A stretch of 64,000 bases of DNA from Terebella lapidaria (taxonomy: Eukaryota; Annelida; Polychaeta; Terebellida; Terebellidae), in contig OX424568.1 in assembly GCA_949152475.1 (NCBI GenBank), positions 26,883,667-26,947,666 on the forward strand, written 5' to 3'. The notes under the pieces are model-generated. The model did no database searches and was not told the origin of the DNA. It saw only the letters and a list, made by a program, of their open reading frames with translations. The position numbers and the translations under genes were made by a program. Positions 24,411 to 53,403 of this stretch are shown one piece after another. Position 1 is the stretch's first letter. Every line of letters starts with the position of its first letter.

Positions 24411-26272
24411 CTAGACGTCAAGGCCTAAAGATGCCTTGGAGGCATTTCGGTGTTAAGACTAATTTGTAATATTTATAACATGTTTACCATGGGCTCTACA
24501 ATGCTCTACGACACACTATTTCCACGATATCGATGAAAACGAAAAATGCCGACTTGGCGAAAAAAATTCAGGTCAAGGTCAAAGTTCATCCATAATACTC
24601 CTTAGACATGTTTGTCTGATGCCACGAGTCTAAAAATAATGTCCGTTTCGCTCTACGACGCACCGTTTCCGAGATATCGACGAAAACGAAAAATGCCCAC
24701 TCGGCGAAAAAATTTCAGGTCAAGGTCAAAGTTCATCCATAATACCCCTTGGACATGTTTGTCTAGTGCCACGAGTCCGAAAATAACATCCGTTTCGCTG
24801 TACGATACACCGTTTCCGAGATATCGACGAAAACATAAATTGTTGACTCGGTAGAAAAATTCAAGATCAAAGGTCATCCTCAATAATCTTTAGACATGTT
24901 TTGTCTAGGGCAACGAGTCCGAAAATAACGTCCGTTTCGCTCTACTATACACCGTTTCCGAGATATCGACGAAATAGAAAAATGCCGACTCGGCAGAAAA
25001 ATTCAAGGTCAAGGTCAAAGGTCGTCCTCAATACCCTTTAGACATGTTTGTCTAAGGCAACGAGTCCGAAAATAACGTCCGTTTTGCTCTACGACGCACC
25101 GTTTCCGAGATATCGTCGAAAACGAAAATTGCCCACTCGGCAGAAAAATTCAAGGTCAAGGTCAAAGTTCATCCTTAATACCCCTTAGACATGTTTGTCT
25201 AGTGCCACGAGTCTGAAAATAACGTCCGTTTCGCTCTACGACACACCGTTTCCGAGAAATCGATGAAAACGAAAAATGCCGACTCGGCGAAAAAATTTTC
25301 AGTCAAGGTCAAAGTTCATCCATAATACCCTATAGACATGTTTGTCTAGTGCTAGAGTCCGAAAATAACGTCCGTTTCGCTCTACGACGCACCGTTTCCG
25401 AGATATCGACGAAAACGAAAAAAGCACTCGGCAAAAAAATTCAAGGTCAAGGTCGATGGTCATCCTTAATACCCCTTAGACATGTTTGTCTAGGGCGACG
25501 AGTCCGAAAATAACGTCTGTTTCGCTCTACGACGCACCGTTTCCGAGATATCGATGAAAACGAAAAATGCCGACTCAGCGAAAAAAATTTTAGGTCAAGG
25601 TCAAAGTTCATCCGTAATACCCCTTAGACATGTTTATCTAGTGCCACGAGTCCGAAAATAACGTCCGTTTCGCTCTACGACACACCGTTTCCGAGATATC
25701 GACGAAAACGAAAAATGACGACCCGGCAGAAAAATTTAAGGTCAAGGTCGAATGTCACCCTTAATACCCCTTAGACATGTTTGTCTAGGGCGACGAGTCC
25801 GAAAATAACGTCCGTTTCGCTCTACGACGCACCGTTTCCAAGATATGCAGGAAACCTCAAGGATGACTGGGCGAAAACTCTTCCGACCTCTAGGTCAAAG
25901 GTCGTTTGACAGATTGATCTCAAAATCAATAAGGTTCTTCCCTATTGATATATGAACCTCCGTGCAAAGTTCTGCAGCCATTGCCTACATACTTTTTGAG
26001 TTATCGAGCGGAAACAAAGTCCAAAAAAAAACATTGATTTCATCCTCACGGACCTCACGGACCTCGGATCCGGCTGAAAAACAATAGGGTTCTTCCACAT
26101 AATATGTCTGACCAATGCTGAAAATTTGGCGAAGATACATCGAGGCAAACTAAAGTTATCGGTCGGAAACCAAAACGGCGGAAAAAAAAGAAAAAAAAAA
26201 AAGAAAAAGAAAAAAAAAAAGGAAAAAAAAAATTCTGCTAAAACCATAAAGGCATTTCTTCCGAAATGCCTT
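24411..26272 (-). mobile_element. Family B Helentron-like element (copy B1)
   Basis: Reverse orientation. On the minus strand the 3' end at 24411-24450 reads CCGAAATGCC, then hairpin AAGGC-...-GCCTT, then GACGTCTAG and flanking T. The 5' end near 26250-26272 is a GGCATTTC/GAAATGCC palindrome followed by a homopolymer tract and about 350 bp of unique sequence. The core (about 24500-25860) is roughly ten ~147-bp units containing GCTCTACGACGCACCGTTTC, CGACGAAAACGAAAAATGCC and, in about five units, AGGTCAAAGTTCA. No coding is seen. Confidence 0.75.
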
Positions 26273-26960
26273 AATTAGGGTCGTATTACAGACATATTGG
26301 GAATCATATATTGTGGATCTTGTGGTGACCCGACCTCGGAATACTTTGAGTAGGTAATCTTGATATCATGTTTAATCAGACTTGAGAAACTGTACAAATT
26401 GGCCTCTACAGACAAAAGGTTCTACACTGAGCCTAGGGTTGTATTCAATTCTTTGCCCTAACAGTTCTATTACATGTGAACTGGCTTTATTACATTGTAT
26501 TATGTCAACAAATCATCTATCTCTGAGGAGTCATATATGGTGGATGTTTGGTCACCTTGAACCAAACATTGGATGACAAAGACTCTAGGTCTCAACCTTA
26601 CTTGATTCAGGTTAATAAAGAGGCATATAAGAAATCCTGTGTGGCATATTTTTGGTGACCTTGAACTTTACCTCATATAATCTTGAGTACACAAACTCAA
26701 GGTTAGGTCATTGAGATACAAACCCCATGAAGGTAGAGCTTAGGCTTTTTTCAAACAAACATGTATGACCATACATATAGGATCTCCAGCATTCCACATC
26801 TTATTGCAATATTCTACATGATCTTAGACCACTTTGAGTATTTGGGCACAAGTTATTCCACCTTAAAACGAGTAAATTGGCTATTGGATACAAACTCGTT
26901 CTAAACAGTGCTGAGGATCATGTTAACAATTCCTTCTCTGAGGAAAAGAGTATTTGAAAA
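26273..26960 (+). repeat. Old degenerate satellite, right part
   Basis: Continues the diverged repeats seen at 23940-24410 (AAATTGGCCTCTACAGACAA; CATATATTGTGGATC; CATATATGGTGGATG). Several TGACCTTGAAC-like words occur. Confidence 0.45.
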
Positions 26961-27102
26961 CAGCTACAGCACCCTTGTTTAATGAAATATTGAATTCTAC
27001 CAAGTCACCAACAAAATAAAATTTATCTCTATGATGTTAATGTCCACAGTAGCACCATATAGAATTGCAAGGGAGTTAACAATAAACACATCAAATACAA
27101 CA

Positions 27103-27108
27103 TTTATT
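27103..27108 (-). terminator. Poly(A) signal of the Gln-rich zinc-finger gene
   Basis: AATAAA on the minus strand, about 95 bp past the stop codon of the gene at 27203-28036. Confidence 0.6.
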
Positions 27109-27202
27109 GATTTATATATTACATTCATAGCAGTTCAATTGAACAAACATGGTTCGGATAACTACCGGTAATTGATTTCAGCTCTTCGGAAAACATGTGC
27201 AC

Positions 27203-28036
27203 TCAGGTAGGGTTCAGAGGGCTAACAGTTCTGTGATTTATGAAATGTTCCAAGAACTCCGGCCAGCCTCTCGAGAGGAATCCACAAGATCCGCACTTTT
27301 GCGGGTTAATTGGGTCGTGAGCCGACCGGTGGATAACGTACAGTGCTTTGTCCTGGAAAACGCTCCCACATATACACACATATATCGCCTGTCGCAATGC
27401 CAGAGTCTGGAATATTTCCTCGTTTGAAAACCACGATAGATTTGGGCGTGGTTTGGAAGGGCCGCTGATTTGATCGGGTTGCTGTTGTGCTTGCTGCGGT
27501 TGCAATTGGGGTTGTGGTTGTTGTGGTTGCAGTTGCTGTGGTTGCAATTGCAGTTGCTGTGCTTGTGGTTGCAATTGTTGTGCTTGCTGTGGTTGCACTC
27601 GCAGTTGCTGGGTTTGCACTTGCTGCGATTGCAGTTGCTGTGTTTGAAATTGCAGTTGCTGTGGTTGCACTCGTGTACTTTGCTGTGCTTGCAGTTGCTG
27701 TTGTGCTTGCTGTGCTTGCACTCGTGGACTTTGCTGTATTTGCTGTGCTTGCACTTGCAGTTGCTGTGCTTGGGTTGGCTTAGGATGTATCGGCTGAGGC
27801 CCCTGTGGGACTACAGTTGCCGATTTTGTCCGTTTCTTCGTTCGTCGCTGCTGGTCTAGTGTAACTGCGGCGTGCCCCACTTCAAACTGCTGGCCTTGCG
27901 CGAGCTGTGATGGTCCTTGTCCATGCTGCGAATGTTGTGCGGCAGGGTTCTGTTGAGGTCGATTCGTCCGTGGTTCTGGTGGATCTGGATCCAAGTCAAT
28001 AACGTCATCGTCTACTATATAGATTGGCGCCGACAT
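27203..28036 (-). CDS. Gln-rich protein with Ikaros/Hunchback-like C-terminal finger pair
   Basis: One uninterrupted minus-strand reading frame of 277 residues from an ATG at 28036-28034. In order: an acidic start SAPIYIVDDDVIDLDPDPPEP; a basic patch QRRTKKRTK near residues 62-70 that may be a nuclear signal; about 110 Gln-rich residues (roughly 85-200); and two C-terminal fingers near 215-268. Finger 1 reads CICGSVF...YVIHRSAH and finger 2 CGSCGF...EFLEHFINH. Spacing between the second Cys and first His is 12 in both, and the YxIH...H plus CxxCG layout resembles the C-terminal dimerisation fingers of Ikaros-family and Hunchback proteins. Finger 1 has CxC instead of CxxC. No DNA-binding finger array is visible. 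The bases before the ATG read TATTGCAG, a possible splice acceptor, so upstream exons may exist. Not identified to a named gene. Confidence 0.72.
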   Translation of the reverse strand: MSAPIYIVDDDVIDLDPDPPEPRTNRPQQNPAAQHSQHGQGPSQLAQGQQFEVGHAAVTLDQQRRTKKRTKSATVVPQGPQPIHPKPTQAQQLQVQAQQIQQSPRVQAQQAQQQLQAQQSTRVQPQQLQFQTQQLQSQQVQTQQLRVQPQQAQQLQPQAQQLQLQPQQLQPQQPQPQLQPQQAQQQPDQISGPSKPRPNLSWFSNEEIFQTLALRQAIYVCICGSVFQDKALYVIHRSAHDPINPQKCGSCGFLSRGWPEFLEHFINHRTVSPLNPT

Positions 28037-28446
28037 CTGCAATATCAAATGTAGTAATTGAGTGGAAACTAAAGTAAAAAGCAAAGCACCTGTACATGTA
28101 TAGCATGGAATTATAAATTCAAACCTATATGAACAATATCCTCATATTTCAGTATGTGTTCAAGTATGGGAGCACATTGAAGGAAATGTGCCACTCTGGG
28201 CAAATGTGGGCGTGACTAATCAGCGCCATGCTATCTGCACCGCATGACCAGTTTTGAACCAATCACAGCCTATTACTGAGATTGCGGCTTGTCCATGATA
28301 TTCTTCATGGACATTCTCGTGAAATAGGTTCCGCTGCATTATGACGAGGCTTACTAGTATTCAGTCAAAATAGTAACCCCATTTTAATGTTTTCAGTGAA
28401 CTATGCCTAGGCCTATATAGTATATCCAGAGAATCCTGGTGCACAG
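28037..28446 (-). other. Upstream flank of the Gln-rich gene
   Basis: Contains the possible splice acceptor immediately 5' of the ATG. No upstream coding exon can be recognised here or further right. Confidence 0.35.
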
Positions 28447-28695
28447 AAGTCAAGCGAACCTGAATGATTGTGAATAAACTAGGGAAGCTAATGAACTAAT
28501 ATATGTGTCAACAAATACATAACTATATCCCATACTCTATGGTGGCATTGCTTTGTCTGTCCATACATTGTAGGCGAGTTATTTGCGGCTTTATAGCAAC
28601 CTGCTGTCAGGTTTTCCTCCAAAGATCTCACACCCCCACTACCGATAATTTAGGGGCGCCAATATTCCTCCGAATCATTCAGGTTCGCTTGACCT
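28447..28695. mobile_element. MITE-like element with 23-bp inverted ends
   Basis: Left end 28447-28469 begins AAGTCAAGCGAACCTG. The right end 28673-28695 is its inverse with one mismatch (AATCATTCAGGTTCGC...). About 249 bp, no coding. Confidence 0.65.
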
Positions 28696-29278: not shown

Positions 29279-29508
29279 TACGAGATATATCCGTCCTAAA
29301 TTCGCCGCATTCCCAAATTCGCCAACGTGGATTTCAGGCCTTGTTATGTAAATGAAACTAAGAAGTTCGATCGTCAATCGAGACTGTGATACCCAATCTT
29401 TGTTTCACTTCCAGTAATTTATTTTTCACAGAACGCGTTTCTAAGTTATGATATTATCGAGTTTGTGAATTTTGGAATGCGGCGAATTTAAGACGGATGG
29501 CTCGTAGG
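29279..29508. mobile_element. Palindromic MITE with CCGTC(C/T)TAAATTCGCC ends
   Basis: Left arm 29281-29313 (CCGTCCTAAATTCGCCGCAT inside) is inverted at 29474-29504. The right flank forms a perfect palindrome CTCGTAGGCCTACGAG at 29501-29516. Confidence 0.65.
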
Positions 29509-33236: not shown

Positions 33237-33282
33237 CCAAATCACGCTGGCGTCATCAGGAGCAGACATTGTGTGAACCTAG

Positions 33283-34456: not shown

Positions 34457-34479
34457 TTAAGTACACATGTTCAAAACCA

Positions 34480-35004: not shown

Positions 35005-36221
35005 ATGATTAATCCGGCGCCTAATCCCTGCGAGGTGTCGGGACCGCCTCAAAACGTGGCCGCGACTACAGAGGTCGAAGATGTGGCGCTTACAGCAGAG
35101 GAGAAGCAACTGGTTCACGAGCTAGACAGGTCTGAATAACAAATTTAAAGGCACACGACAAGTTTGGAGACAATTCCCTCCCCCCCCCCCCCTCCCCATG
35201 CTCTGGCCGGGACCTCTTCACCAGTCTACCACCACTCAATCCCTCAGTTATCCCTGATCATTCCTGTTTGTGTAGTCTGTACAAGTTGATTGATTATGGT
35301 ACCTGTGACCAATGTCCTTGGCTCAGTTTGTCAGTTTCACCCTTGGCTTGGATTCATGGTTAAAGCTGCTGCCTTCGAATGTAGAGTCTATGCAATATTT
35401 TTTTCGAAACCAATTTTTTGTTAGACACATCTAATGCAATATAACAAAAGGTGTGCTCAATGATTTTGACGATTTCAGTCCGTCCGAGTTGTCTTTTCAT
35501 CCGTTTTAGTGCCCATTTTGTACCGGTTTTGTAAATAAACAAACGAAGTGTATCCATCAAACCTGAATGTAAACAAATGCTCAAACCGCACTCAAAAGTC
35601 CACATCGAGTACATTTTCCAGTCCATATGTGCACATATAGTGTAGTTATGATTAAATAATCAGTGATATACCATGATATGCATGGAATTGTCAGTCTATC
35701 TAGCATTTCTATGCTTTATTTTTTTTTCTTCTTCCGCCACTTTTGGTTTCCGGACGATAACTTTAGATTGCCTTGACGGATCCTTGTCAAATTTTCACCG
35801 CAAGTCAGAAATGATATGTAGAAGAACCCTATTCTTTTTGAGCCGGATCCGAGGTCCGTGAGGTCCGTGAGGATGAAATCAAGGCTAATTTTGAGACTTG
35901 GTTTCCGGACGATAACTGGAAAAATATTTATGCAATAGTTGCAGAACTCTGCATGGAGGTTCATAGGCCACCAGGGAAGAACCCTATTGATTTTGGGATC
36001 GATCCGTCAAACGACTTTGACCTAGAGGTCGAAATAATTTTTTGCTGATTCATCCTTGAGGCTTCCTGCATATCTCAGAAACCGTGCGTCGTAGAGCGAA
36101 ACGGACGTTATTTTCGGACTTGTCGCCCATCTCTAGGGTGTATTATTAGGGCATTTCGGCACGAAATGTCCTTATGGTTTTGTCAGAATTTTTTTTTTTT
36201 TTTTTTTTCTTTTTTTTTTTT

Positions 36222-36254
<33 letters not shown>

Positions 36255-39200
36255 CACTTTTCGGTTTCCGGACGATAACTTAAGAACGCCTTGACGAATC
36301 TTCGAGAACTTTTCACCAGTTATCACATATATAACATAGATGAACCCTATTGTTTTGGAGCCGGCTTCGAGGTCCGGTTAGTCCGTGAGGATGAATTTTG
36401 AGTCAAATGGTTTCCGGATGATAACTCGAAAAGTACTTGTGCTACCATTCTGAAACTTGACATATATGTTGATATAGTGTCGCAGAGGAGCCCTATCGAT
36501 TACGGGGTCAATACCTTGAACGACCTTTGACCCAGGGGCCAAAAACAATTTTGAAGAGTCATCCTTGAGGCTCATTGCATATCTCGGAAACGGTGCGTCG
36601 TAGAGCGAAACGGACGTTATTTTCGGACTCGTCGACCTAGACAAACATGTCTTAGGGGTATTATGGATGAACTTTGACCTTGACCCAAATTTTTTTCGCC
36701 GAGTCGGCATTTTTCGTTTTCTTCGATATCTCGGAAATGGTGTGTCGTAGAGCGAAACGGACGTCATTTTCGGACTCGTCGACCTAGACAAACATGTCTT
36801 AAGGGTATTACAGATGACCTTTGACCTTGACCTTGAATTTTTCTGCCGAGTCGGCATTTTTCGTTTTCGTCGATATCTCGGAAACAGTGCGTCGTAGAGC
36901 GAATCGGACGTTATTTTCAGACTCGTCACCCTAGACAAACATGTCTAAGGGTTATTATGGATGAACTTTGACCTTGACCCGAAATTTTTTTGCCGAGTCG
37001 ACATTTTTCGTTTTCTTCGATAACATGGAAACGGTGCGTCGTAGAGCGAAACGGACGTTATTTTCGGACTCGTCAACCTAGACAAACATGTCTAAATTGT
37101 ATTATGGATGAACTTTGACCTTGACTGGAATTTTTTTTGCTGAGTCGGCATTTTTCATTTTCGTCGATATCTCGGGAACGGTGCGTCATAGAGCGAAACG
37201 GACTTTATTTTCGGATTTGTCACCCTAGACAGACATGTCTAAAGGGTATTATGGATGAACTTTGACCTTGACCGGAAATTTTTTTGCCGAGTCGGCATTT
37301 TTCGTTTTCTTCGATATCTCGGAAATGGTGCGTCGTAGAGCGAAACGGACGTCATTTTCGGACTCGCCGACCTAGACAAACATGTCTAAGGGGTATTATA
37401 GATGAACTTTGACCTTGACCTGAAATTTTTTTGCCGAGTCGGCATTTTTCGTTTTCGTCGATATCTCGGGAACGGTGCACCGTAGAGCGAAACAGACGTT
37501 ATTTTCGGACTCGTCGACCTTGACAAACATGTCTAAAGGGTATTATGGATGAACTTTGACCTTGACCCGAATTTTTTTTGCCGAGTCGGCATTTTTCGTT
37601 TTCTTCAATATCTTGGAAACGGTGTGTCGTAGAGCGAAACGGACGTTATTTTCGGACTCGTCACCCTAGACAAACATGTCAAAAGGGTATTATGGATGAA
37701 CTTTGACCTTGACCCGAAATTTTTTTGCCGAGTCAGCATTTTTCGTTTTCTTGGATATCTCGGAAACGGTGCGTCGTAGACCGAAACGGACATTATTTTC
37801 GGACTCGTCGACCTAGACAAACATGGGTATTAGGGATTAACATTTAACCTTGTTAAGGGTATTAGGGATGACCTTTTACCTTGACCTTGAATTTTTCTGC
37901 TGAGTCGGCATTTTTCGTTTTCTTCGATATCTCGGAAACGGTTTGTCATAGAGCGAAACGGTCGTTATTTTCGGACTCGTGACACTAGGCAAATATGTCT
38001 TAGGGGTATGTTGAGTCAACTTGATCCGTCGTCTTGGATTGAAATGGATGTATCTACATAATCATTTTGGCTGCAGAGTTGTCAGTAATAAACAGTTCAC
38101 CTGTGATTGTGTTGTGTATCGAAATGCCCCAAGGCCTCTAGGCCTTCACGTCTAGTTGTATTACACTGTTGTTGTGTTACAAGTGTATTTTGTCCAGGGC
38201 GTCACTGAATCGTGTGAGAGGCTCCCTGAGTGAGATGGAGAACGTCTAGTTGTATTACACTGTTGTTGTGTTACAAGTGTATTTTGTCCAGGGTGTCACT
38301 GAATCGTGTGGGAGGCTCCCTGAGTGAGATGGAGAACGTCTAGTTGTATTACACTGTTGTTGTTTTACAAGTGTATTTTGTCCAGGGTGTCACTGAATCG
38401 TGTGGGAGGCTCCCTGAGTGAGATGGAGAACGTCTAGTTGTATTACACTGTTGTTGTGTTACAAGTGTATTTTGTCCAGGGCGTCACTGAATCGTGTGGG
38501 AGGCTCCCTGAGTGAGATGGAGAACGTCTAGTTGTATTACACTGTTGTTGTGTTACAAGTGTTGTGTATTTTGTCCAGGGTGTCACTGAATCGTGTAAGA
38601 GGCTCCCTGAGTGAGATGGAGAACGTCTAGTTGTATTACACTGTTGTTGTGTTACAAGTGTATTTTGTCCAGGGCGTCACTGAATCGTGTGGGAGGCTCC
38701 CTGAGTGAGATGGAGAACGTCCAGTTGTATTACACTGTTGTTGTGTTACAAGTGTTGTGTATTTTGTCCAGGGTGTCACTGAATCGTGTGAGAGGCTCCC
38801 TGAGTGAGATGGAGAACATCTAGTTGTGTTGTGCTGTTGTTCTGTTATAAGTGTTGTCTATTTTGTCCAGGGTGTCACTGAATCGTGTGGGAGGCTCCCT
38901 GAGTGAGATGGAGAACGTCTAGTTGTATTGTACTGTTGTTCTGTTATAAGTGTTGTCTATTTTGTCCAGGGTGTCACTGAATCGTGTGAGAGGCTCCCTG
39001 AGTGAGATGGAGAACGTCTAGTTGTATTACACTGTTGTTGTGTTACAAGTGTATTTTGTCCAGGGCGTCACTGAATCGTGTGGGAGGCTCCCTGAGTGAG
39101 ATGGAGAACGTCTAGTTAGGGCATTTCGGCCCGAAATGCCCTTATGGTTTTGTCTGGTTTTTTTTTTTTTTTTTTTTTCTTCTTTTTTTTTTACTTTCCG

Positions 39201-42200
39201 CCGTTTTGGTTTCTGATCAATAACTCGGGAACGCCTGAACGGATCTTGTCCAAATTTACACCACTGGTCAGAAATATTACATGGAAGACCCCTATTGTTT
39301 TGGAGGCGGCTCCGGGGTCCGTGAGGTCCGTGAGGATGAAATCAAGGTTGATTTTGAGACTTGGTTTCCGATCGATAACTCAAAAAGTATTCATGCAATG
39401 GCAAGTATTCTCTGCATGGGAGTTCATATACCACCAAGGAAGAACCCTATTGATTTTGGGATCACTCCGTCGAACGACCTTTGACCTAGAGCTCGGAAGA
39501 ATTTTTGCTGATTCATCCTTGAGGCTTTCTTGCATATCTCGGAAACGGTGTGTCGTAGAGCGAAACGGAGCTCAATTTCGGCCTCCTGGCACTAGACAAA
39601 CTAGTCTAGGGGGTATCTTGGGTCGAAACGACCCCTGGTGTCGATTTTTTTTTTCGCCGACTCGGCACTTCCTGTTTGGCCGTATCTCGGAAACGGTATG
39701 TCGTAGAGCGAAACGGAGCTCAATTTCGGCCTCCTGGCACTAGACAAACTAGTCTAGTGTGTATCTTGGGTCAAAACGACCCCTGGTGTCGATTTTTTTT
39801 TTCGCCGACTCGGCACTTCCTGTTTGGCCGTATTTCGGAAACGGTATGGTGTAGAGCGAAACGGAGCTCAATTTCGGCCTCCTGGCACTAGACAAACTAG
39901 TCTAGTGTGTATCTTGGGTCGAAACGACCCCTGGTGATTTTTTTTTTCGCCGACTCGGCACTTCCTGTTTGGCCGTATCTCGGAAACGGTATGTCGTAGA
40001 GCGAAACGGAGCTCAATTTCGGCCTTTTGGCACTAGACAAACTAGTCTAGGGGGTACTAGTTTAGGGGGTATCTTGGGTCGAAACGACCCCTGGTGTCGA
40101 TTTTTTTTTTCGCCGACTCGGCACTTCCTCTTTGGCCGTATCTCGGAAACGGTACGTCGTAGAGCGAAACGGAGCTCAATTTCGGCCTTCTGGCACTAGA
40201 CAAACTAGTCTAGAGGGTATCTTGGGTCGAAACGACCCCTGGTGTCAATTTTTTTTTTCTCCAACTCGGCTTTTCCTGTTTGGCCGTATCTCGGAAACGG
40301 TGCGTCGTAGAGCGAAACGGAGCTCAATTTCGGCCTCCTGGCACTAGACAAACTAGTCTAGTGTGTATCTTCGGTCGAGACGACCCCTGGTGTCGAATTT
40401 TTTTTTCGCCGACTTGGCACTTCCTGTTTGGCCGTATCTCGGAAACGGTACGTCGTAGAGCGAAACGGAGCTCAATTTCGGCCTTCTGGCACTAGACAAA
40501 CTAGTCTAGTGTGTATCTGGGGTCGAGACGACCCCTGGTGTCGATTTTTTTTTTGGCCGACTCGGCACTTCCTGTTTGGCTGTATCTCGGAAACGGTACG
40601 TCGTAGAGCGAAACGGAGCTCAATTTCGGCCTTCTGGCACTAGACTAACTAGTCTAGGGGGTATCTTGGGTCGAAACGACCCCTGGTGTCGATTTTTTTT
40701 TTCGCCGACTCGGCACTTCCTGTTTGGCCGTATCTCGGAAACGGTGCGTCGTAGAACCAAAACGGAGCTCAATTTCGGCCTCCTGGCACTAGACAAACTA
40801 GTCTAGTGTGTATCTTCGGTCGAGACGACCCCTGGTGTCAAATTTTTTTTTCGCCGACTCGGCACTTCCTGTTTGGCCGTATCTCGGAAACGGTGCGTCG
40901 TAGAGCGGAAGGGAGCTCAATTTCGGCCTTTTGGCACTAGACAAACTAGTCTAGTGTGTATCTGGGGTCGAGACGACCCCTGGTGTCGAATTTTTTTTTC
41001 GCCGACTCGGCACTTCCTGTTTGGCCGTATCTCGGAAACGGTGCGTCGTAGAGAGAAACGGAGCTCAATTTCGGCCTCCTGGCACTAGACAAACTAGTCT
41101 AGGGAGTATCTTTGGTCGAAACGACCCCTGGTGTCGATTTTTTTTTTCGCCGACTCGGCACTTCCTGTTTGGCCGTATCTCGGAAACGGTGCGTCGTAGA
41201 GCGAAACGGAGCTCAATTTCGGCCTCCTGGCACTAGACAAACTAGTCTAGTGTGTATCTTCGGTCGAGACGACCCCTGGTGTCGAATTTTTTTTTCGCCG
41301 ACTCGGCACTTCCTGTTTGGCCGTATCTCGGAAACGGTGCGTCGTAGACTGGAACGGAGCTCAATTTCGGCCTTTTGGCACTAGACAAACTAGTCTAGTG
41401 TGTATCTGGGGTCGAGACGACCCCTGGTGTCGAATTTTTTTTTCGCCGACTCGGCACTTCCTGTTTGGCCGTATCTCGGAAACGGTGCGTCGTAGAGAGA
41501 AACGGAGCTCAATTTCGGCCTCCTGGCACTAGACAAACTAGTCTAGGGAGTATCTTTGGTCGAAACGACCCCTGGTGTTGATTTTTTTTTTCGCCGACTC
41601 GGCACTTCCTGTTTGGCCGTATCTCGGAAACGGTGCGTCGTAGAGCGAAACGGTGCTCAATTTCGGCCTCCTGGCACTAAACAAACTAGTCTAGTGTGTA
41701 TCTTCGGTCGAGACGACCCCTGGTGTCGAATTTTTTTTTCGCCGACTCGGCACTTCCTGTTTGGCCGTATCTCGGAAACGGTGCGTCGTAGAGAGAAACG
41801 GAGCTCAATTTCGGCCTCCTGGCACTAGACAAACTAGTCTAGTGGGTATTTTGGGTCGAGACGACCCCTAGTGTCAAATTTATTTTCGCCGACTCGGCAC
41901 TTCCTGTTTGGCAGTATCTCGGAAATGGTGCGTCGTAGAGCGAAACGGAGCTCAATTCCGGCCTCCTGGCACTAGACAAACTAGGCTTATGGGTATTTTG
42001 GGTCGAGACAACCCCTGGTGTCAATTTTTTTTTCGCTGAATCGGCACTTCCTGTTTGGCCGTATCTCGGAAACTGTGCATCATACAGGGATATGGAGCTC
42101 AATTTCGGCCTGCTGGCATTAAACAAACTAGTCTAGTGGGTATCTTGGGTCGAGACGACCCCTGGTGTCAATTTTTTTTTCCCCGACTCGGCACTTCCTG

Positions 42201-45200
42201 TTTGGCCTTATCTCGAAAACGGTGCGTCGTAGAGCGAAACGGAGCTCAATTCCGGCCTTGTGGCACTAGACAAACTAGTCTAGTGGGTATTTTCGGTCGA
42301 GACGACCCCTAGTGTCGAATTTATTTTCGCCGACTCCACACTTCCTGTTTGGCCGTATCTCGGAAATGGTGCATCGTAGAGCGAAACGGAGCTCAATTCC
42401 GGCCTCATGGCACTAAACAAACTAGTCTAGTGTGTATCTTCGGTCGAGACGACCCCTGGTGTCGAATTTTTTTTTCGCCGACTCGGCACTTCCTGTTTGG
42501 CCGTATCTCGGAAACGGTGCGTCGTAGAGCGAAACGGAGCTCAATTTCGGCCTCCTGGCACTAGACAAACTGGTCTAGTGTGTATCTTGGGTCGACACGA
42601 CCCCTGGTGTCGAATTTTTTTTTCGCCGACTCGGCACTTCCTGTTTGGCTGTATCTCGGAAACGGTGCGTCGTAGAGAGAAACGGAGCTCAATTTCGGCC
42701 TCCTGGCACTAGACAAACTAGTCTAGTGGGTATTTTGGGTCGAGACGACCCCTAGTGTCAAATTTATTTTCGCCGACTCGGCACTTCCTGTTTGGCAGTA
42801 TCTCGGAAATGGTGCGTCGTAGAGCGAAACGGAGCTCAATTCCGGCCTCCTGGCACTAGACAAACTAGGCTTATGGGTATTTTGGGTCGAGACAACCCCT
42901 GGTGTCAATTTTTTTTTCGCTGAATCGGCACTTCCTGTTTGGCCGTATCTCGGAAACTGTGCATCATACAGGGATATGGAGCTCAATTCCGGCCTTCTGG
43001 CACTAGACAAACTAGTCTAGTGGGTATTTTGGGTCGAGACCACCCCTGGTGTCGAATTTATTTTCTCCGACTCGGCACTTCCTGTTTGGCCGTATCTCGG
43101 AAATGGTGAGTCGTAGAGCGAAACGGAGCTCAATTTCGGCCTCCTGGCATTAAACAAACTAGTCTAGGGGTATCTTGGGTCGAAACGACCCCTGGTGTCG
43201 ATTTTTTTTTTCCGACTCGGCACTTCCTGTTTGGCCGTATCTCGGAAACGGTGCATCGTAGAGCGAAACGGAGTTCAATTTCGGCCTGCTGGCACTAGAC
43301 AAACTAGTCTAGTGGGTATCTTGGGTCGAGACGACCCCTGGTGTCAATTTTTTTTTCGCCGACTCGGCACTTCCTGTTTGGCCTTATCTCGAAAACGGTG
43401 CGTCGTAGAGCGAAACGGAGCTCAATTCCGGCCTTGTGGCACTAGACAAACTAGTCTAGTGGGTATTTTCGGTCGAGACGACCCCTAGTGTCGAATTTAT
43501 TTTCGCCGACTCCACACTTCCTGTTTGGCCGTATCTCGGAAATGGTGCGTCGTAGAGCGAAATGGAGCTCAATTCCGGCCTCCTGGCACTAGACTAACTA
43601 GTCTAGAGGGTATCTTGCGTCGAGACGACTTCTGGTGTCGAATTTTTTTTTGCCGACTCAGCACTTCCTGTTTGCCTCAGAAACGGTCCGTCGTAGAGCG
43701 AAACGCAAAAATGCCTAAGGACGGGGTATGTCACTTAAACTTTGACCACGGACAGATTCAGAGTCATCATGGTTCTACGCGGTCTCTTAGGTAAATGTTA
43801 GGTAGGAATAGAACTCACACGAAATGCCCCAAGGCATCTTCAGGCCTTGACGTCTAGTTTTTTTTGATCCGGCTCCGAGGTCCGTGAGGTCCTTGAGGAT
43901 GAAATCGAGGCTGATCTTGAAACTTGGTTTCCGGACGATAACTCGAAAAATATTCAGGCAGTTGCAGAATTTTGCACGGAGGTTTATATATCAACAGGGA
44001 AGAACCCTATTGATTTTGGGATCGATACGTCAAACGACCTTTGACCTAGAGGTCAAAATAATTTTTTGCTGAGTCATCCATGAGGCATCCTGCATATCTC
44101 GGAAACGGTGCGTCGTAGAGCGAAACGGACGTTATTTTCGGACTCGTCGCCCTAGACAAACATGTCTAAGGGGTATTATGGATGAACTTTGACCTTGACC
44201 CGAAATTTTTTTGCCGAGTCGGCATTTTTCGTTTTCGTCGATATCTCGGAAACGGTGCTTCGTAGAGCGAAACGGACGTTATTTTCGGACTCGTTGCCCT
44301 AGACAAACATGTCTAAGGGGTATTATGGATGAACTTTGACATTGACCCGAAATTTTTTTGCCGAGTCGGCATTTTTCGTTTTCGTCGATATCTCGGAAAC
44401 GGTGTGTCGTAGAGCGAAAAGGACGTTATTTTCGGACTTGTCGCCCTAGACAAACATGTCTAAGGGGTATTATGGATGAAGTTTGACCTTGACCCGAAAA
44501 ATTTTTGCCGAGTCGGCATTTTTCGTTTTCATCGATATCTCGGAAATGGTGTGTCGTAGAGCGAAACGGACGTTATTTTCGGACTCGTCGCCCTAGACAA
44601 ACATGTCTGAGGGGTATTATGGATGAACTTTGACCTTGACCTTGAATTTTTTTGCCGAGTCGGCATTTTTCATTTTCGTCGATATCTCGGAAACGGTGCG
44701 TCGTAGAGCGAAACGGACGTTATTTTTGGACTCGTCGCCCTAGACTAACATGTCTAGAGGGTATTATGGATGAACTTTGACCTTGACCCGAAATTTTTTT
44801 GCCGAGTCGGCATTTTTCGTTTTCATCGATATCTCGGAAACGGTGTGTCGTAGAGCGAAACGGACGTTATTTTCGGACTCGTCGCCCTAGACAAACATGT
44901 CTAAGGGGTATTATGTCTAAGTCGGCATTTTTCGTTTTCGTCGATATCTTGGAAACGGTGTGTCGTAGAGCGAAACGGACGTTATTTTCGGACTCGTCGC
45001 CCTAGACAAACATGTGTATGGGGTATTATGGATGAAGTTTGACTTGGACCCGAAAATTTTTTGCCGAGTCGGCATTTTTCGTTTTCGTCGATATCTCGGA
45101 AACGGTGTGTTGTAGAGCGAACGTTATTTTCGGACTCGTCGCCTAGACAAACATGTCTGAGGGGTATTATGGATGAACTTTGACCTTGACCTTGAATTTT

Positions 45201-48200
45201 TTTGCCGAGTCGGCATTTTTCATTTTCGTCGATATCTCGGAAACGGTGCGTCGTAGAGCGAAACGGACGTTATTTTCGGACTCGTCGCCCTAGACTAACA
45301 TGTCTAGAGGGTATTATGGATGAACTTTGACCTTGACCCGAAATTTTTTTGCCGAGTCGGCATTTTTCGTTTTCATCGATATCTCGGAAACGGTGTGTCG
45401 TAGAGCGAAACGGACGTTATTTTCGGACTCGTTGCCCTAGACAAACATTCCTAAGGGGAATTATGGATGAACCTTGACCCGAAATTTTTTTGCCGAGTCA
45501 GCATTTTTCGTTTTCGTCGATATCTCGGAAACGGTGCTTCGTAGAGCGAAACGGACGTTATTTTCGGACTCGTCGCCCTAGACAAACATGTCTTAAGGGT
45601 ATTATGGATGAACTTTGACCTTGACCCAAAATTTTTTGGCCGAGTCGGCATTTTTCGGTTTCGTCGATATCTTGGAAACGGTGTGTCGTAGAGCGAAACG
45701 GACGTTATTTTCAGACTCGTCGCCCTAGACAAACATGTCTAATGGGTATTATGGATGAACTTTGACCTTGACCCGAAATTTTTTTGCCGAGTCGGCATTT
45801 CTCGTTTTCGTCGATATCTCGGAAACGATGCTTCGTAGAGCGAAACGGACGTTATTTTTGGACTCGTCGCCCTAGACAAACATGTCTAATTGGTATTATG
45901 GATGAACTTTGACCTTGACCTGAAATTTTTTTGCCGAGTCGGCATTTTTCTTTTTCGTCGATATCTAGTATATATTATAAATTAATCATCACACCGAAAT
46001 GCCTCCAAGGCATCTTTAGGCCTTGACGTCTAGTTTTCATTACATTTGATGTGAGTATGTTTCATTCAGTTAGTTTAGCATGTTTAATATGAAATATAGT
46101 TTTAAAAAAATACTGACTGGTTCCGAAGGCAGCTGCTTTAAGCTTCATATTTATAAACGCACTGTGACCGTATGATAGGATATTGATAACTCTGGCGATG
46201 TGTATCCCGTCATACTCCCGTGGAGCAGGGTAATGATGATATCGATATATGATGCTTGATATGATCGAGTTAGCTGTAGACCCATCATAGAACTCAAACT
46301 CATCAGTCCCATGTGTAGCTTCATTGGGACAGTGCCAAACCTTGCATCATTGGATGTGAATTCTTGTTAGATTTTAGCAAATTGATTCGACACTTTATAC
46401 ATTGTCAGGGGGTGCAACCTATCTAAAACCGCTTAAACCATTCCAAAATATTCATAAAGTTTCAGGTCCAAAGAGGCTTTCAGCTTCGTTGCACATAAAT
46501 TCAACAATACATTCTTAGCTATTAACATGATGAATTGTACATTATATGTTGGTCACTTTCGTGAGGTACTTTTTTTTCACAAATTCACATAGAGCTTCAT
46601 AGTTAACATACTCAGTGAATAACATGTAATTTCCAATCTATTTCTACGATTTGTTTGTACATAGTGCAGTTCTATACATTGTGCAACAAGTGTTACTGTC
46701 TGCTTCTGACCCCCCCCCCCCTCCCCCCCCCCCCCACACACACACACACAAACACACACGAAAAGAAACAAACATAAATTTATTTACAGACAAATAAAAA
46801 AAAATACAAAAGTTGTTGGGAATGAAATTTTCATTAAAATGGTATTTCCAAGTCAAAATCATTGTATCACAGATGATGTTTGTCATCTAGACGCTGTGTT
46901 ACACTGTTGCTTTTGCTTGTTTTGACAGTCGCCAGTATGGTTTTCTCAAGCTGGACACGCCCGAGGGGACGGCCAAGAAAGCCCTCATCCTCAAGGTTAG
47001 TAGCCATGGTAACAGTTTAAAACCAGTGATTGCCATTGATAGGTCTTGTACCAAATATTACTCTTAACCCGGAATTGGTGTTCGTTAATTCAGCTTTTTT
47101 AGCCTTTTATATAAAACGCTAATATTAATGGATGCTAATATATAAATATGTTAAACACGACATATGATGGCAAGATATAAACGCTAAATTCAAGGGTCAC
47201 TAATATTTCAGGATTTAGATTATAATATACAATTTGGGGAAATATAGATGTATCTTGATATATACTAGTAGATGAAACTAAAATCATTAATAATTTACAA
47301 TTATTCATTTGGATTTACACTCATCTACATTTCAGCGGTCCCAACTGGATAAATGGTCCTAAAGTTTTAAAAATTTGTTATGCCACGAGCGTTCAAATTA
47401 TGACGTAGGCGATAAATGGGTTTGTTTACATTGATTCCTGGTGACATTTTATCGTGGAAAGTGATGGATATTGCATGAGAATGAAAAGGCAAAAAATATA
47501 TTTTTTGGTGATTGAGGAGAATTGTAAGGTGATGATGTACACATACCAATCGGGTTTCACCTTGTATCCATGATACCCTTTGATCAACCATCCAAAAATT
47601 TCAATTTTCATGTGCAGCATTTTTAGGTTACCGGACCTATGGTCCGATAACCTATTGGCATGGCGTTGCATCCGTCGTCCGTCGTCGTCGTCCACATTTT
47701 TATCTTTTTTGTTTACGGGCGAATTTTTCTGAAATTTTGCAGAAAAATACTTAAAAATAATTCAAGAAGGAGGTATTTTTTAGTTTTTTGATTTTCGCTT
47801 TTTCTTCAAAATGGCGGCCGTTTTCGACGAAAAAGGCCTGATTTTGGACTTTGGCGGCCATTTTTAGGTTACCGGACCTATGGTCCGATAACCTATTGGC
47901 ATGGCGTTGCGTCCGTCGTCTGTCGTCCGTCATCCGTCGTCGTCCGTCGTCGTCCGTCGTCGTCGTCGTCCACATTTTTATCTTTTTTGTTTACGGGCGA
48001 ATTTTTCTGAAATTTTGCAGAAAAATACTTAAAAATAATTCAAGAAGGAGGTATTTTTTAGTTTTTAGGTTACCGGACCTTCGGTCCGATAACCTATTGC
48101 CGTGGCGTTGCGTCCGTCGTCCGTCGTCGTCGTCCGTCGTCGTCCGTCGTCGTCCGTCGTCGTCCGTCGTCGTCCGTCTACATTTTTATCTTTAAAGTTT

Positions 48201-51200
48201 ACGATCGAATCTTTCTGAAATTTTGCACAAAAATGCCTAAAAATATTTCGAGAGGGAGGTATTTTTTAGTTTTTTCATTTTCGCAATTATTTCAAAATGG
48301 CGGCCGTTTTCGTCGAAAAGTGGCCAATTTTGGACTTTGGCTGTCGTTTTCTCAAAATCTGTTCAGTAACTTTTTTTCTTATTCATGCATAACACTCCTC
48401 ATATGTACCTCTGTGACATGTATAAATTTCGTTGCCCTTGAATCGCTCGAAGTGGGCCATTTTGGGCCCAAACTCGGCCCAAATGGGACTTTCCCATGTT
48501 AAATTCTCCTATGCTTTATAATGGGACACATTAAGCCTAATATCTCACTTAATATTGAGATTAGAGACTAGGAATCAATTGTGGACATATAGGAAATGAT
48601 ATATGCTGAATATTGTTGTGACCTTGAATTTGACCTTTGACCTCATTTTCAAGGTCACAGGACAAAATGGCTAATATCTCGCTTATTATCGACTTTACAG
48701 CTTAGGAATACATTGTGAACATATAGGAAATGATATATGCTGAATTTTCTCGTGACCTGGAATTTGACCTCTGACCTCATTTCCAAGGTCACAGGACAAA
48801 ATTGCTAATATCTCGCTTATTATCGACTTTACAGCTTAGGAATCAATTGTGAACATATAGGAAATGATATATGCTGAATATTTTTGTGACCTTGAATTTG
48901 ACCTTTGACCTCATTTTCAAGGTCACAGGACAAAATGGCCAATATCTTGCTTATTAGTGACTTTACGCCTTATGAATCAATTGTGAACATATAGGAAATG
49001 ATATATGCTGAATATTCTAGTGACCTTGAATTTGACTTTTGACCTCATTTTCAAGGTCAACAGGACAAAATGGCTAATATTTTGCTTATTATCAACTTTA
49101 CAGCTTAGGAATCAATTGTGAACATATAGGAAATGATATATTCTGAATATTCTCATGACCTTGAATTTGACCTTTGACCTAAATTTCAAGGCCAGTCATT
49201 TTAATTTCAAGGTCAGAATACAAAATGGTTTATATCTCTCTTATTATCAAATTCACAGCTTAGGGGTCCATAGTGAACATATAGGAAATGATGTATGCTG
49301 AATATTTTGGTGATCTAGAATTTGACCTTTGATCCAATTTTCAAGGTCAGAGAACAAAATGGCTAATATGTCGCTTATTATCATCTTCACAGCTTAGGAA
49401 TCAATTGCGAATATAGAGGAATGATATATACTGAATCTTTTCATGAACTTGAACTTTGACCTCATTTTCTAGGTCACATCACCGATCACAGAATGGCTGA
49501 TATCTCACTTATTATCGACTTTACAGCTCAGGAATTTATTGTGGACATACTAGAAGTGATATATTTGTTGAAAAATTATTTTCAAGGTCGCTGGACAAAA
49601 GGCTAATATCTAAAATGTATATTGTCCGGTAACCTTTCTTAGCCCTTGGGCTAATTTTTTGATTTTCGCTTTTTCTTCAAAATGGCGGCCGTTTTCGACG
49701 AAAAAGGCCTGATTTTGGACTTTGGCGGCCATTTTCTCAAAATCTGTTCAGTAACTTTTTTTCTCTTTGATACATAAGACTCCTCATATGTACTTCTATG
49801 ATGTCTATAAATTTCGTTGCGCTTGAATCGCTCGAAGTGGGCCATTTTGGCCCAAACTCGGCCCAAATGGGACTTTCCCATGTTAAATTCTCCTATGCTT
49901 TATAATGGGACACATTAAAGCCTAATATCTCACTTAATATTGAGATTAGAGACTAGGAATCAATTGTGGACATATAGGAAATGATATATGCTGAATATTG
50001 TCGTGACCTTGAATTTGACCTCTGACCTTGGTTTCAAGGTCAGAGCGGCCGTTTTCGTCGAAAAATGGCCAATTTTGGACTTCGACGGTCGTTTTCTCAA
50101 AATCTGTTCAGTAACTTTTTTTCTTATTAATGCATGACACTCCTCCTATGTACCCCTGTGACATGTATGAATTTCGTTGCCCTTGAATCGCTCGAAGTGG
50201 GCCATTTTGGGCCCAAACTCAGCCCAAATGGGACTTTCCCATGTTAAATTCTCCTATGCTTCATAATGGGACACATTAAGCCTAATATCTCACTTAATAT
50301 TGAAATTAGAGACTAGGAATGAATTGTGGACATATAGGAAATGATATATGCTGAATATTCTCGTGACCTTGAATTTGACTTTTGACCTCATTTTCAAGGT
50401 CACAGGACAAAATGGCTAATATCTCGCTTATTATCGACTTTACAGCTTAGGAATCAGTTGTGAACATATAGGAAATGATATATGCTGAATATTCTTGTGA
50501 CCTGGAATTTGACCTCTGACCTCATTTTCAAGGTCACATGACAAAATGGCTAATATCTCGCTTATTATCGACTTTACAGTTTAGGAATCAATTGTGAACA
50601 TATAGGAAATGATATATGCTGAATATTTTCGTGACCTTGAATTTGACCTTTGACCTCATTTCCAAGGTCGCAGGACAAAATTGCTAATATCTCGCTTATT
50701 ATCGACTTTACAGCTTAGGAATCAATTGTGAACATATAGGAAATGATATATGCTGAATATTCTCGTGGCCTTGAATTTGAGCTTTGACCTCATTTTCAAG
50801 GTCACAGAACAAAATGGCCAATATCTTGCTTATTAGCGACTTTACAGCTTAGGAATCAATTGTGAACATATAGGAAATGATATATGCTGAATATTCTCAT
50901 GACCTTGAATTTGACCTTTGACCTCATTTTCAAGGTCACAGGACAAATTGGCCAATATCTTGCTTATGAGCGACTTTACAGCTTAGGAATCAATTGTGAA
51001 CATATAGGAAATGATATATGCTGAAAATTCTCGTGACCTTGAATTTGACCTTTGACCTCATTTTCAAGGTCACAGGACAAAATGGCCAATATCTTGCTTA
51101 TCAGCGACTTAACAGCTTAGAAATCAATTGTGAACATATAGGAAATGATATATGCTGAAAATTCTCATGACCTTGAATTTGACCTTTGACCTCATTTTGA

Positions 51201-53403
51201 AGGTCACATGACAAAATGGCTAAGATCTCGCTTATTATCGACTTTACAGCTTAGGAATCAATTGTGAACATATAGGAAATGATATATGCTGAATATTCTC
51301 GTGACCTTGAATTTGACCTTTGACCTCATTTTCAAGGTCACATGACAAAATGGCTAATATCTCGCTTATTATCGACTTTACAGTTTAGGAATCAATTGTG
51401 AACATATAGGAAATGATATATGCTGAATATTTTCATGACCTTGAATTTGACCCTGACCTCATTTCCAAGGTCACAGGACAAAATTGCTAATATCTCGCTT
51501 ATTATCGACTTTACAGCTTAGGAATCAATTGTGAACATATAGGAAATGATATATGCTGAATATTCTCATGACCTTGAATTTGACCTTTGACCTCATTTTC
51601 AAGGTCACTGAACAAATTGGCCAATATCTTGCTTATTAGCGACTTTACAGCTTAGGAATCAATTGTGAACATATAGGAAATGATATATTCTGAATATTTT
51701 AATGATATTGAATTTGACCTTTGACCTAAATTTCAAGGTCAGTCATTTTATTTTCAAAGTCAGATTACAAAATGGCTTATATCTCGCTTATTATCAAATT
51801 TACAGCTTAGGGGTCCATAGTGAACATATAGGAAATGATGTATGCTGAATAGTTTGGTGATCTAGAATTTAACCTTTGATCCCATTTTCACGGTTAGAGA
51901 TATGGCGATTTCAGTGGTCACCTTGAATTTGACTTTCAACTTTCTCGGCTTAACTCTGTATATTTCTCCGGTAACCTTACTAGCCCATTGGGCTAATTTT
52001 TTTTCTTCAAATACTAGTACACATATAGAGATTTACTGGTAACCAAGTCAACAAACCGAATATTTTTTTTGCTCGGCCTGATGATGACAGAGTGCCTCGT
52101 AAATTGCCATAAAAGGATATTTATTTTGGGGTTTCCCTATACCATGAGGTGATACTCCTTTGTGATTGGTTAACTAATCAATGACGTCATAACGCATGCA
52201 GCGTAATACTTTATTTCCATGTATACACTTCTGCACTGCCTACGGGCATGTGATGACAGAAGATAGATTTGTTTGCTGTTTATTTTATTTCGTTCCAATT
52301 GATTATACGATATTGACGACCCATAAAAGGCTCCTCTCACATGTTTGCTCGAAAAACATGTACACCAATCATACTATTCATCTATGGCATGTCATAACAC
52401 AAGGTTTGATATACCCGTGCATTTTACGTAAAACGACGTTGTTCCCCCTGGTGAGTTTACGTCATGAAAAGCGAAATGATTGTAAAAGTTATTACACCTT
52501 GTACAACATCCCAGTGGCAGTACATCGCCGCAACCAAATTGTGATTGACTCATACCTAATCAATCAAATGTGGTTATGTTATCAAAAATGTCATCTTTTA
52601 GGACCGTTTTTCCAAAGGTGAGTGTATATATTTACAATTACTGATATTTTGACCTTGTTTCTCACAGGCTGTGGCTTGCATCGAGAAATCGCTGGCCGTC
52701 TACAAAGAAAAGGACAAAGATGCGACGCAGACGGAAGAGACATCTACTGAGCAGGAAGCGCACTACGAAGTCGATCCGCAGCTCTATTGCATCCTGGGAC
52801 ATCTACATCTACTCGTGGAAAACTTCGCCAAAGGTATGCTACAGATGTACAAATCACTATATTATACTGTACTGGAATTGTAGGCCTACGGTAACTGAAG
52901 ATATTTTAAATGAACAGAATAAATTCTGATTTCTCATGTAATAAACAGACGACTTTTGACATTCAAATGTCGAAATGATGTCTGATTTAATATCATGCTT
53001 TAAAACTAAGTTAAAACAAGAGATGATGGTAGATCACTAAATTTGTGTGTGTTTTGAACTTGAGTTTCATTTCAAGTATTTTATTTTGCAGCGCTGTCAG
53101 CCTACCAGAGGTTCTTTGCTATGGAGAAAGAATATTGGAAGGTAAGTTTTCAACAGTAAACCTCAGCATAGTCAAATAAATTTGTATTCAACCCCAGTTA
53201 ATCAACATTTCACAATCATGTCTTCAATAGCTTAATAAAATGCTTAATAATAAAAAAAAAAAATTATATGCTACTACTGATATTTCAATGCAGATACAGT
53301 CCTTTGAATAAATAAAGGTATATCATTTGATGTTTTTCCTTCAGAATGCCGAGTTTCTGTACGGTTTAGGACTTGTGTACTTTCACTTCAACACGTATCA
53401 ATG
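35005..53403 (+). CDS. KDM6A: Lysine demethylase 6A (UTX), N-terminal TPR exons, partial
   Basis: Five exons, 35005-35129, 46929-46995, 52668-52833, 53092-53141 and 53345-53403, join in frame; the catalytic end is beyond the window. UTX removes H3K27 di- and trimethylation and scaffolds the MLL3/4 (COMPASS-like) complex through its TPRs. Human and window share, in order, LTAEE(K/R), LDSR.(Y/F)GF, KALL/ILK-AV, C.LGH..LL.E...KALSAYQR, YWKNA.FLYGLGLVYFH.N..QW. Exon 1 starts at ATG 35005 (MINPAPNPCEV); upstream in-frame sequence offers no ATG. Exon 3 carries about 19 extra residues rich in Glu, Thr and Lys between the first TPR helices. The first two introns are filled by Helentron-like satellites. 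The last visible intron contains SLC44A1 on the opposite strand. Phases at every junction agree (2, 0, 1, 0, 2). Confidence 0.93.
35160..35190 (+). repeat. Poly-C tract just inside KDM6A intron 1
   Basis: A C-run broken by T, starting about 35 bp after the exon 1 donor. Confidence 0.9.
35718..36147 (+). mobile_element. Truncated family B element, interrupted by B2
   Basis: Carries the family B 5' unique region (GGTTTCCGGACGATAACT; GAGGTCCGTGAGGTCCGTGA) and less than one satellite unit, then stops where B2 begins. The terminal palindrome is missing. Confidence 0.65.
36148..38155 (+). mobile_element. Family B Helentron-like element (copy B2) in KDM6A intron 1
   Basis: 5' palindrome AGGGCATTTCGG / CGAAATGTCC, TTATGGTTTTGTC, a T-tract of about 60, the unique region, then about ten ~147-bp units (36590-38000), then CGAAATGCCCC, hairpin AAGGC-...-GCCTT, CACGTCTAG and T. 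Units contain TCGTAGAGCGAAACGGACGT, CTAGACAAACATGTCTA and TGAACTTTGACCTTGACC. Some stretches translate openly but the repeats are not coding-like. Confidence 0.78.
38149..39112 (+). repeat. 94-100 bp minisatellite, about ten units, between B2 and B3
   Basis: Each unit runs CGTCTAGTTGTATTACACTG ... TTTTGTCCAGGG ... GGGAGGCTCCCTGAGTGAGA ... GGAGAA. Starts are at 38149, 38243, 38337, 38431, 38525, 38624, 38718, 38817, 38915, 39015 and 39109. The period is 94, with three or four longer units. Units are nearly identical, so the array is young or homogenised. Confidence 0.9.
39118..43857 (+). mobile_element. Family B Helentron-like element (copy B3) with a 28-unit satellite core
   Basis: Complete ends: palindrome AGGGCATTTCGGCCCG... 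at 39118-39141, and CGAAATGCCCC + hairpin AAGGC...GCCTT + GACGTCTAG ending at 43857. The core, about 39540-43700, has about 28 units of ~148 bp of a distinct variant: GAAACGGAGCTCAATTTCGG, ACTAGACAAACTAGTCTAGT, GGTCGAAACGACC, GACTCGGCACTTCCTGTTTG. Segments repeat at about 884 bp (41847 and 42731) and about 1,170 bp, i.e. multiples of the unit, so higher-order repeats exist. The short open frames across it are by-products. Confidence 0.82.
43865..46033 (+). mobile_element. Family B Helentron-like element (copy B4), 5' truncated
   Basis: Begins within the unique region (GATCCGGCTCCGAGGTCCGT) directly after the B3 end. It carries about 12 units of the B2-type satellite and ends with CCGAAATGCC, hairpin AAGGC...GCCTT and GACGTCTAG at 46030-46033. 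About eight units keep the TGAACTTTGACC motif. Confidence 0.75.
46710..46760 (+). repeat. Poly-C plus (CA)n tract
   Basis: About 25 C with one T, directly followed by a CA microsatellite, in KDM6A intron 1. Confidence 0.95.
47625..47865 (+). mobile_element. Family C 5' end (C2a), interrupted
   Basis: AGGTTACCGGACC-tatg-GGTCC palindrome, then GGCATGGCGTTGC and a CGTCCGTCGTC microsatellite. It breaks off at GGCGGCCATTTT, where the next copy begins. Confidence 0.75.
47866..51997 (+). mobile_element. Family C Helentron-like element (C2b), split by C2c
   Basis: 5' palindrome at 47866. The sequence runs to about 48066, is interrupted by C2c, resumes at about 49657 (GATTTTCGCTTTTTCTTC) and ends at 51997 with CCGGTAACCT and hairpin TTAGCCC-like CTAGCCCATTGGGCTAA. 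The core from 49918 holds about 16 units of ~133 bp with GGAATCAATTGTGAACATAT, GGAAATGATATATGCTGAAT and TTTGACCTTTGACCTCATTT. Two larger blocks within it (starting near 49665 and 50047) repeat the CGGCCGTTTTCG leader. Confidence 0.72.
48067..49656 (+). mobile_element. Family C Helentron-like element (C2c), inserted in C2b
   Basis: Complete: 5' AGGTTACCGGACC-ttc-GGTCCG palindrome, a long CGTCGTCCGT microsatellite (48108-48180), leader, about eight ~135-bp units (48530-49600), GTCCGGTAACCT at 49624-49635, hairpin TTAGCCCTTGGGCTAA at 49639-49654. The host sequence (ATTTTTTAGTTTT|TTGATTTTCG) is split at a T-run without obvious target duplication. Confidence 0.78.
52000..52667 (+). other. End of KDM6A intron 2, no feature recognised
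   Basis: A 141-codon open stretch at 52196-52621 has no recognisable domain and lies in the intron; judged chance. Confidence 0.4.

Follow-up and report, generated by a model that had tools for sequence, protein, structure and literature searches.

Why should satellite arrays in the genome of Terebella lapidaria repeat, many times over, a DR1 site of the nuclear-receptor kind? The window, by which we mean the whole 64,000-nucleotide stretch that was analysed (G000:C15:26883667-26947666, within a 761.6-Mb genome), had been given a sequence-only reading in which two unrelated satellite families, B and C, carry roughly thirty DR1-type sites between 24500 and 51960, a convergence taken to hint at selection on the element or at a regulatory load on KDM6A and its neighbours. 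The coordinates are correct and the sites are real, their number having been put slightly low: scanning the whole window for RGKTCA-N-RGKTCA revealed 36 matches, distributed as given in Table 1, and none outside the B and C elements. Three exact forms make up most of them, namely AGGTCAAAGTTCA (21 in the window; B1: 5, B2: 7, B4: 8, C: 1), AGGTCAAAGGTCA (11; B2: 1, C: 10) and AGGTCAGAGGTCA (3, all in C). The enrichment was borne out by shuffling: the narrower pattern AGGTCANAGKTCA has 35 matches in the window and was absent from all of 100 dinucleotide shuffles, and the half-site TCAAGGTCA has 66 copies against a shuffle mean of 0.71. As had been described, TCAAGGTCA half-sites flank the C DR1 in both orientations, and the DR1 of B1, B2 and B4 units overlaps an extended half-site. 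One of the C sites (50016) belongs to a single unit lying between the two C arrays. The spacing classes that stand out are DR0 (24), DR1 (36), DR6 (16), DR7 (21) and everted 8 (16), every other half-site spacing class having at most 3 members in the window. These counts result from the copying of a few repeat units and do not imply dozens of independent origins.

Table 1. Positions of the elements, arrays, example receptor clusters and neighbouring exons in the window.
Feature	Position	Strand	Description
B1 element	24410..26273	-	HINE-type; array 24503-25846, 147-bp B units, 5 DR1
B1 ends			reverse complement of GCCTTGACGTCTAG at 24411 = 3' end; 5' inverted repeats GGCATTTC / CCGAAATGCC at 26251-26270
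B2 element	36147..38156	+	array 36579-38009, 8 DR1
B2 ends			GGGCATTTCGG at 36149; terminus ACGTCTAGTT at 38148-38157
B3 element	39117..43858	+	array 39535-43705, 148-bp units, ~28 copies, B-homologous, 0 DR1
B4 element	43860..46034	+	without 5' end; arrays 44094-44915 and 44920-45966; 9 DR1
B4 3' end			GACGTCTAGTT at 46025
C elements, nested	47624..51997	+	5' ends 47625, 47866, 48067; 3' ends 49625, 51967
C arrays	48537-49564 and 50282-51894		134-bp units; 14 DR1
C receptor cluster, example	48619..48657	.	TGACCTTGAA, DR1 at 48631-48643, TTCAAGGTCA
B receptor cluster, example	36668..36683	-	TCAAGGTCAAAGTTCA; DR1 overlaps extended half-site
KDM6A-like exon upstream of C elements	46930..46998	+	translation
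KDM6A-like exon downstream of C elements	52669..52834	+	translation

The arrays lie between ends of a recognizable kind. Every C 5' end bears the 11-bp subTIR AGGTTACCGGA and every C 3' end TCCGGTAACCT; on the left side AGGTTACCGGA is followed by an imperfect inverted copy, TCCGATAACCT, and then by CGTC repeats (48111-48178), and on the right side TCCGGTAACCT is followed by a palindrome, TAGCCCATTGGGCTA, read by eye. The B subTIR GGGCATTTCGG, present in B3 (39119) as well as in B2, is followed by its inverted copy CCGAAATGCCC (39131) and a T run (39158-39192), and near the B 3' ends CGAAATGCC precedes a hairpin, AAGGC...GCCTT (again by eye), and then CTAGT. Matching subTIRs, a complementary inverted repeat with a microsatellite and a 3' palindrome were found in both B and C, and several element ends have T-rich flanks. 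Judged by these subTIRs, inverted repeats, microsatellites and palindromes, which fit the published description (PMC7492417), the arrays are the cores of HINE-type elements, that is, of non-autonomous Helentrons. The DR1 lies inside their central repeats (134 bp in C, 147 bp in B), and its numbers would stem from tandem growth of the cores combined with dispersal of the elements, presumably by Helentron machinery. A search for Helitron_like_N gave at least 150 matches (150 scored of 234 candidates; weakest E 9.4e-26), many in open reading frames near 2,300 aa; none of eight B and C end patterns occurred within about 1.5 kb on either side of eight of these loci, excerpts that may stop short of the element ends.

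Other repeats were noted as well. A 94-bp tandem array of about 10 copies (38148-39117) starts with ACGTCTAGTT, the 3' terminus of B2, and its last unit runs into the 5' end of B3; judged from these bounds, each unit would appear to contain the end of a Helentron. An element at 120-1680 has C-type ends, a divergent core and six TCAAGGTCA half-sites, with no DR1. Arrays of 132-bp and 121-bp units follow one another three times (window 3051-4880 and 22826-23625; locus L053, 1606-2303), apparently as another double-core element.

Across the whole genome we counted 59,461 copies of the exact AGGTCAAAGGTCA, where the reversed control has 49, and 41,610 of the exact DR0 AGGTCAAGGTCA (control: 207). 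C or G precedes TGACCTTTGACCT (pattern STGACCTTTGACCT) at 1,339 places (control: 15), indicating that about 98% of the sites have A or T there, like B and C. Upon examination of eight STGACCTTTGACCT loci, six proved to be B or C copies and two to be one 36-bp minisatellite. This minisatellite (at least 40 copies; C1:4929092-4931069, loci L094/L095) holds CTGACCTTTGACCT in its unit and is by eye unrelated to B or C. As a general feature beyond B- and C-type repeats DR1 could be rejected: in a sample of 154,157 bases lying beyond B, C and B3 units (masked at E 1e-6), DR0- or DR1-like matches were confined to L044, L048 and L066, the last of which had itself been selected for holding a DR1. With a mask at E 1, which hid L066 through its motif, AGGTCA was found 94 times in 152,101 bases, compared with 172 times for the most frequent among its 180 anagrams. 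Judged from these samples, the DR1 excess seems to belong to a few repeat families. A further family, F, flanks B elements on the left. Its copies in the window read CGACCTTTGACCT or CGACCTTTGACCC and so fall short of DR1, the form at locus L078 being perfect; F was left out of the DR1 families. That flank (39210-39545 and 43925-44094) is a degenerate repeat in which ATAACTC and CGACCTTTGACCT stand about 100 bp apart, and the 40 places scored genome-wide among 1,077 candidates were all at least 98% identical. Of two viral-contig scans, one gave 4 contigs and the other 0.

Abundance of this kind could arise with no receptor involved. The DR1 may have been a pure passenger, present in founder monomers accidentally or through slippage of a TTGACC hexamer and amplified by transposition and array growth, a serious competitor that we nevertheless hold to be on the improbable side. 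Raw conservation is ordinary, as expected of a passenger: the DR1 columns of 159 C units had an identity of 0.928 against 0.908 in other non-CpG columns (rank 35 of 134), and in 62 B units the two values were 0.923 and 0.924 (rank 72 of 147), the comparison taking in loci fetched for DR1. Taken alone, these ranks are the outcome that the earlier reading had named as counting against it. Since C and G columns mutate faster than A and T columns in C units, we compared columns base by base, with CpG excluded and weighting by locus, and divided the DR1 into eight strict positions, which the RGKTCA halves require, and five tolerant ones. In the discovery set (118 C units; 10 loci), the mismatch at strict positions was 0.043 versus 0.121 at base-matched columns (p 0.0021), and tolerant columns gave no significant difference (0.104 versus 0.128, p 0.29). 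This set was assembled with no fetching by DR1 pattern, and it includes the window and six of the matches obtained with a DR1-bearing C unit; L001, being the window itself, and L004, regarded as a copy of L003, were left out, and the look-alikes L007 and L008 were both kept. Within its 118 units the DR1 was intact in 66, broken in 38 and affected by a gap or missing bases in 14.

Because the strict/tolerant split was devised after the raw result, only ten further loci serve as an independent check. They were fetched as 90 to 92% identical matches to a DR1-bearing C unit, being 10 of 32 full matches that had not been cut out earlier (1 of the 32 lies in the window), and units were counted as one match per stretch, the cluster being self-complementary. 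The 34 units of these loci repeated the deficit, with strict mismatch at 0.026 versus 0.093 (p 0.0099, or 0.021 when distinct events are counted) and no significant effect at tolerant columns (0.085 versus 0.099, p 0.44). Pooling gave p 0.0005 for the strict deficit (0.0026 by events), and 125 C units from loci fetched by exact DR1, which were kept apart, behaved alike (0.064 versus 0.135, p 0.0021). The GGTCA cores of the flanking half-sites were also low when pooled (0.057 versus 0.113, p 0.0096; further loci alone, p 0.088), their remaining positions giving no significant pooled difference (p 0.105). Shifting the mask along the pooled C unit placed the true position 14th of 128 by frequency and 7th by events, and 18th and 20th in the further loci alone, and these ranks make the pattern suggestive and not unique. 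The DR1 window came 6th among 96 CpG-free windows, the first being GGAAATGATATAT, which has no receptor reading. Substitutions in C, and in C only, thus appear to avoid the bases a receptor requires, with a borderline mask-shift control; this strict-not-tolerant deficit, repeated in ten further loci, counts against a pure passenger.

The remaining comparisons run in the passenger's favour. No significant constraint was seen in B: strict columns did not differ significantly either in 49 units from 3 loci that had not been fetched for DR1 (0.022 versus 0.047, p 0.13) or in 117 units from 10 loci (0.045 versus 0.067, p 0.25). Tolerant columns of the 49 units varied above expectation (0.237 versus 0.035), an excess owed mostly to one G/T polymorphism that leaves the DR1 valid, and the nine bases after the B DR1 were also more variable than expected (0.226 versus 0.041). 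Gaps showed no depletion in the DR1, in C (0.026 versus 0.018) or in B (0.028 versus 0.009). B3, the biggest B-type array in the window (39535-43705), grew after losing its DR1, which shows that arrays can expand in the absence of the site. The cluster of a third family, E, consists of a TTGACC run, shortened by 13 bp in 1 of 6 copies. The E DR1 is intact in 4 of the 6, while hardly any variation, or none, is seen in the bases upstream of it and in the remaining TTGACCTTGACCTTGAGAAGTTCG; the invariance of the ATAACTC-type box follows from the copies having been fetched with an exact box pattern. Selection on the element, as proposed earlier, is thus partly supported: the strict deficit in C and the receptor-type domains encoded by the genome speak for it, and the ordinary raw conservation of DR1, the want of significant constraint in B, the loss of the site in B3, the gaps and the E copies speak against it.

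Are B and C unrelated? With the receptor motif masked, their similarity was not significant (p 0.17), and overall identity at the best shared register was at chance level in all three pairs of B, C and E (p 0.76, 0.58 and 0.38). To this extent the earlier claim holds, and both results would suit a convergence under selection, in which unrelated monomers independently gained a DR1 because receptor binding helped the element; the strict-column deficit in C would suit it too. Short boxes at equal places tell against it. Anchored at the DR1, B and C have in common an 8-mer, ATATCTCG, about 90 bp upstream (p 0.0046), and B and E a 10-mer, CGTCGTAGAG (p 0.0004), with no significant common run between C and E (p 0.088). 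The DR1 starts 89 bp (B), 91 bp (C) or 87 bp (E) after ATAWCTC on the same strand, so that its place is nearly constant in families that otherwise have little in common, which also weighs against a pure passenger. These box tests were done after the boxes had been seen, and, overall identity being at chance, common descent rests on short boxes noticed post hoc; we take them, without claiming proof, to reflect a common origin of the monomers or the swapping of parts between them. They weaken the word "unrelated", and with it "convergence", by pointing to common ancestry or exchange. Together with the want of constraint in B and the loss of the DR1 in B3, they leave independent gain improbable in our view.

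The kinship of B3 is plain, as it aligned with B along its full length (score 108; null mean 10.9) and has GGTCGAGACGACCCC at the place of the B DR1. Family E was encountered through L066, a locus holding a DR1. The pattern ATAACTC-10N-CGTCGTAGAG gave 495 matches (reversed control: 1), and among 100 matches listed at least 11 were B-type units and not E. Copies of E are arranged head to tail on several chromosomes, the period being about 1.35 to 1.9 kb (arrays at 38.5 and 47.2 Mb of C1, 43.0 Mb of C4, 13.8 Mb of C5 and 8.2 Mb of C7), and the best 40 of 2,804 candidates were 99% identical to the query.

A structural role, in which the C arms TGACCTTGAA and TTCAAGGTCA, a perfect 10-bp inverted repeat in the consensus, form a hairpin with the DR1 in its loop for rolling-circle copying, is largely ruled out by the near absence of compensatory substitutions (2 changed stem cells keep Watson-Crick pairing versus 251 that do not, 72 of these being G-T wobbles) and finds no such arms in the B unit, which makes it most improbable.

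The reading that we prefer, at a probability of roughly 0.45, is that the cluster has long been part of the monomer, retained in or exchanged among families, and that C has been held to the half-site rules, most simply through a helpful host receptor. B, C and E have one plan in common, consisting of an ATAWCTC box, about 90 bp, and a GGTCA cluster on the same strand, and this common plan is why we take the cluster to be old, as against a separate gain in each family. Within the C lineage the cluster has seemingly been constrained by receptor half-site rules during copying. A host receptor that binds DR1 (HNF4/RXR/COUP-TF class) could sit on the core and help the source copies, for example by way of an open germ-line state. 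The sites and their counts, the anatomy of the elements, the boxes in common and the substitution pattern in C were observed; common descent, receptor binding and benefit to the element are what we infer from them.

The host genome appears to encode receptors of the DR1-binding class. An HNF4-type DNA-binding domain was found (91% identity to the query over 66 aa; C11:35765396-35765593), as was an RXR-like exon (83% over residues 14-66; C13:31292877-31293035). The C elements lie between two exons that, by likeness to the human sequence, we take to be KDM6A, and this placement would make them intronic. A structure search with the KDM6A-like exon translation matched only TPR chains of CDC27/APC3. 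Elsewhere in the window, the coding stretches at 9076-9726 (-), 60286-62391 (-) and 1700-2340 (+) presumably belong to V-ATPase subunit D, a choline-transporter-like protein and ITM2, which they resemble.

HINE elements with satellite cores are already known, and the present elements are of that kind. Cg_HINE of Crassostrea gigas is described as holding satellite-like arrays (mostly 140-180 bp) between a 5' subTIR, inverted repeat and microsatellite and a 3' subTIR and palindrome, at T-rich sites, with cores that differ among elements and two conserved segments common to otherwise dissimilar monomers (PMC7492417). B and C share with it the short arrays within the same end architecture; unlike them, Cg_HINE has no receptor-type site mentioned in the main text (PMC7492417). 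Similarly, the BIV160 and Cg170 satellites and pearl elements of bivalves are reported as divergent monomers with two common motifs and a link to mobile elements, in which they resemble B, C and E (PMC5139131). Membership in BIV160 found no support in the two printed primers, whose similarity to the three families was not significant (p 0.138 to 0.932; PMC5139131). Neither "ggtca" nor "transcription factor" appears in the main texts of PMC7492417, PMC8268682 and PMC5139131, and in the open-access literature searched we found no report of receptor-type sites in HINE-like satellite cores.

ISX of Drosophila is a Helitron. It is a precedent for B and C as a mobile element that disperses functional sites for a host DNA-binding complex; its function and selection were tested in the published account, whereas B and C are known from sequence alone (PMC4384637). 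The cNRE likewise consists of clustered receptor hexads, for which the authors ask about a transposon origin, and differs in being a single vertebrate regulatory module for which no tandem satellite cores are mentioned in the text consulted (PMC10995137).

A stronger form of the receptor reading, in which several old families of HINE cores rely on a host nuclear receptor for their propagation, with receptor-bound tandem DR1 cores keeping the sources accessible, seems to us unlikely. If it were true, mobile elements would have placed receptor sites in this genome by the tens of thousands, where these could serve as a sink for the receptor or as a store of regulatory sites. The wider question is why HINE monomers retain short conserved boxes. 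If one such box is a host receptor site, there would be a testable reason for the persistence of the cores, and mobile elements would have loaded this genome with about 60,000 identical sites, which would bear on the endocrine biology of the species.
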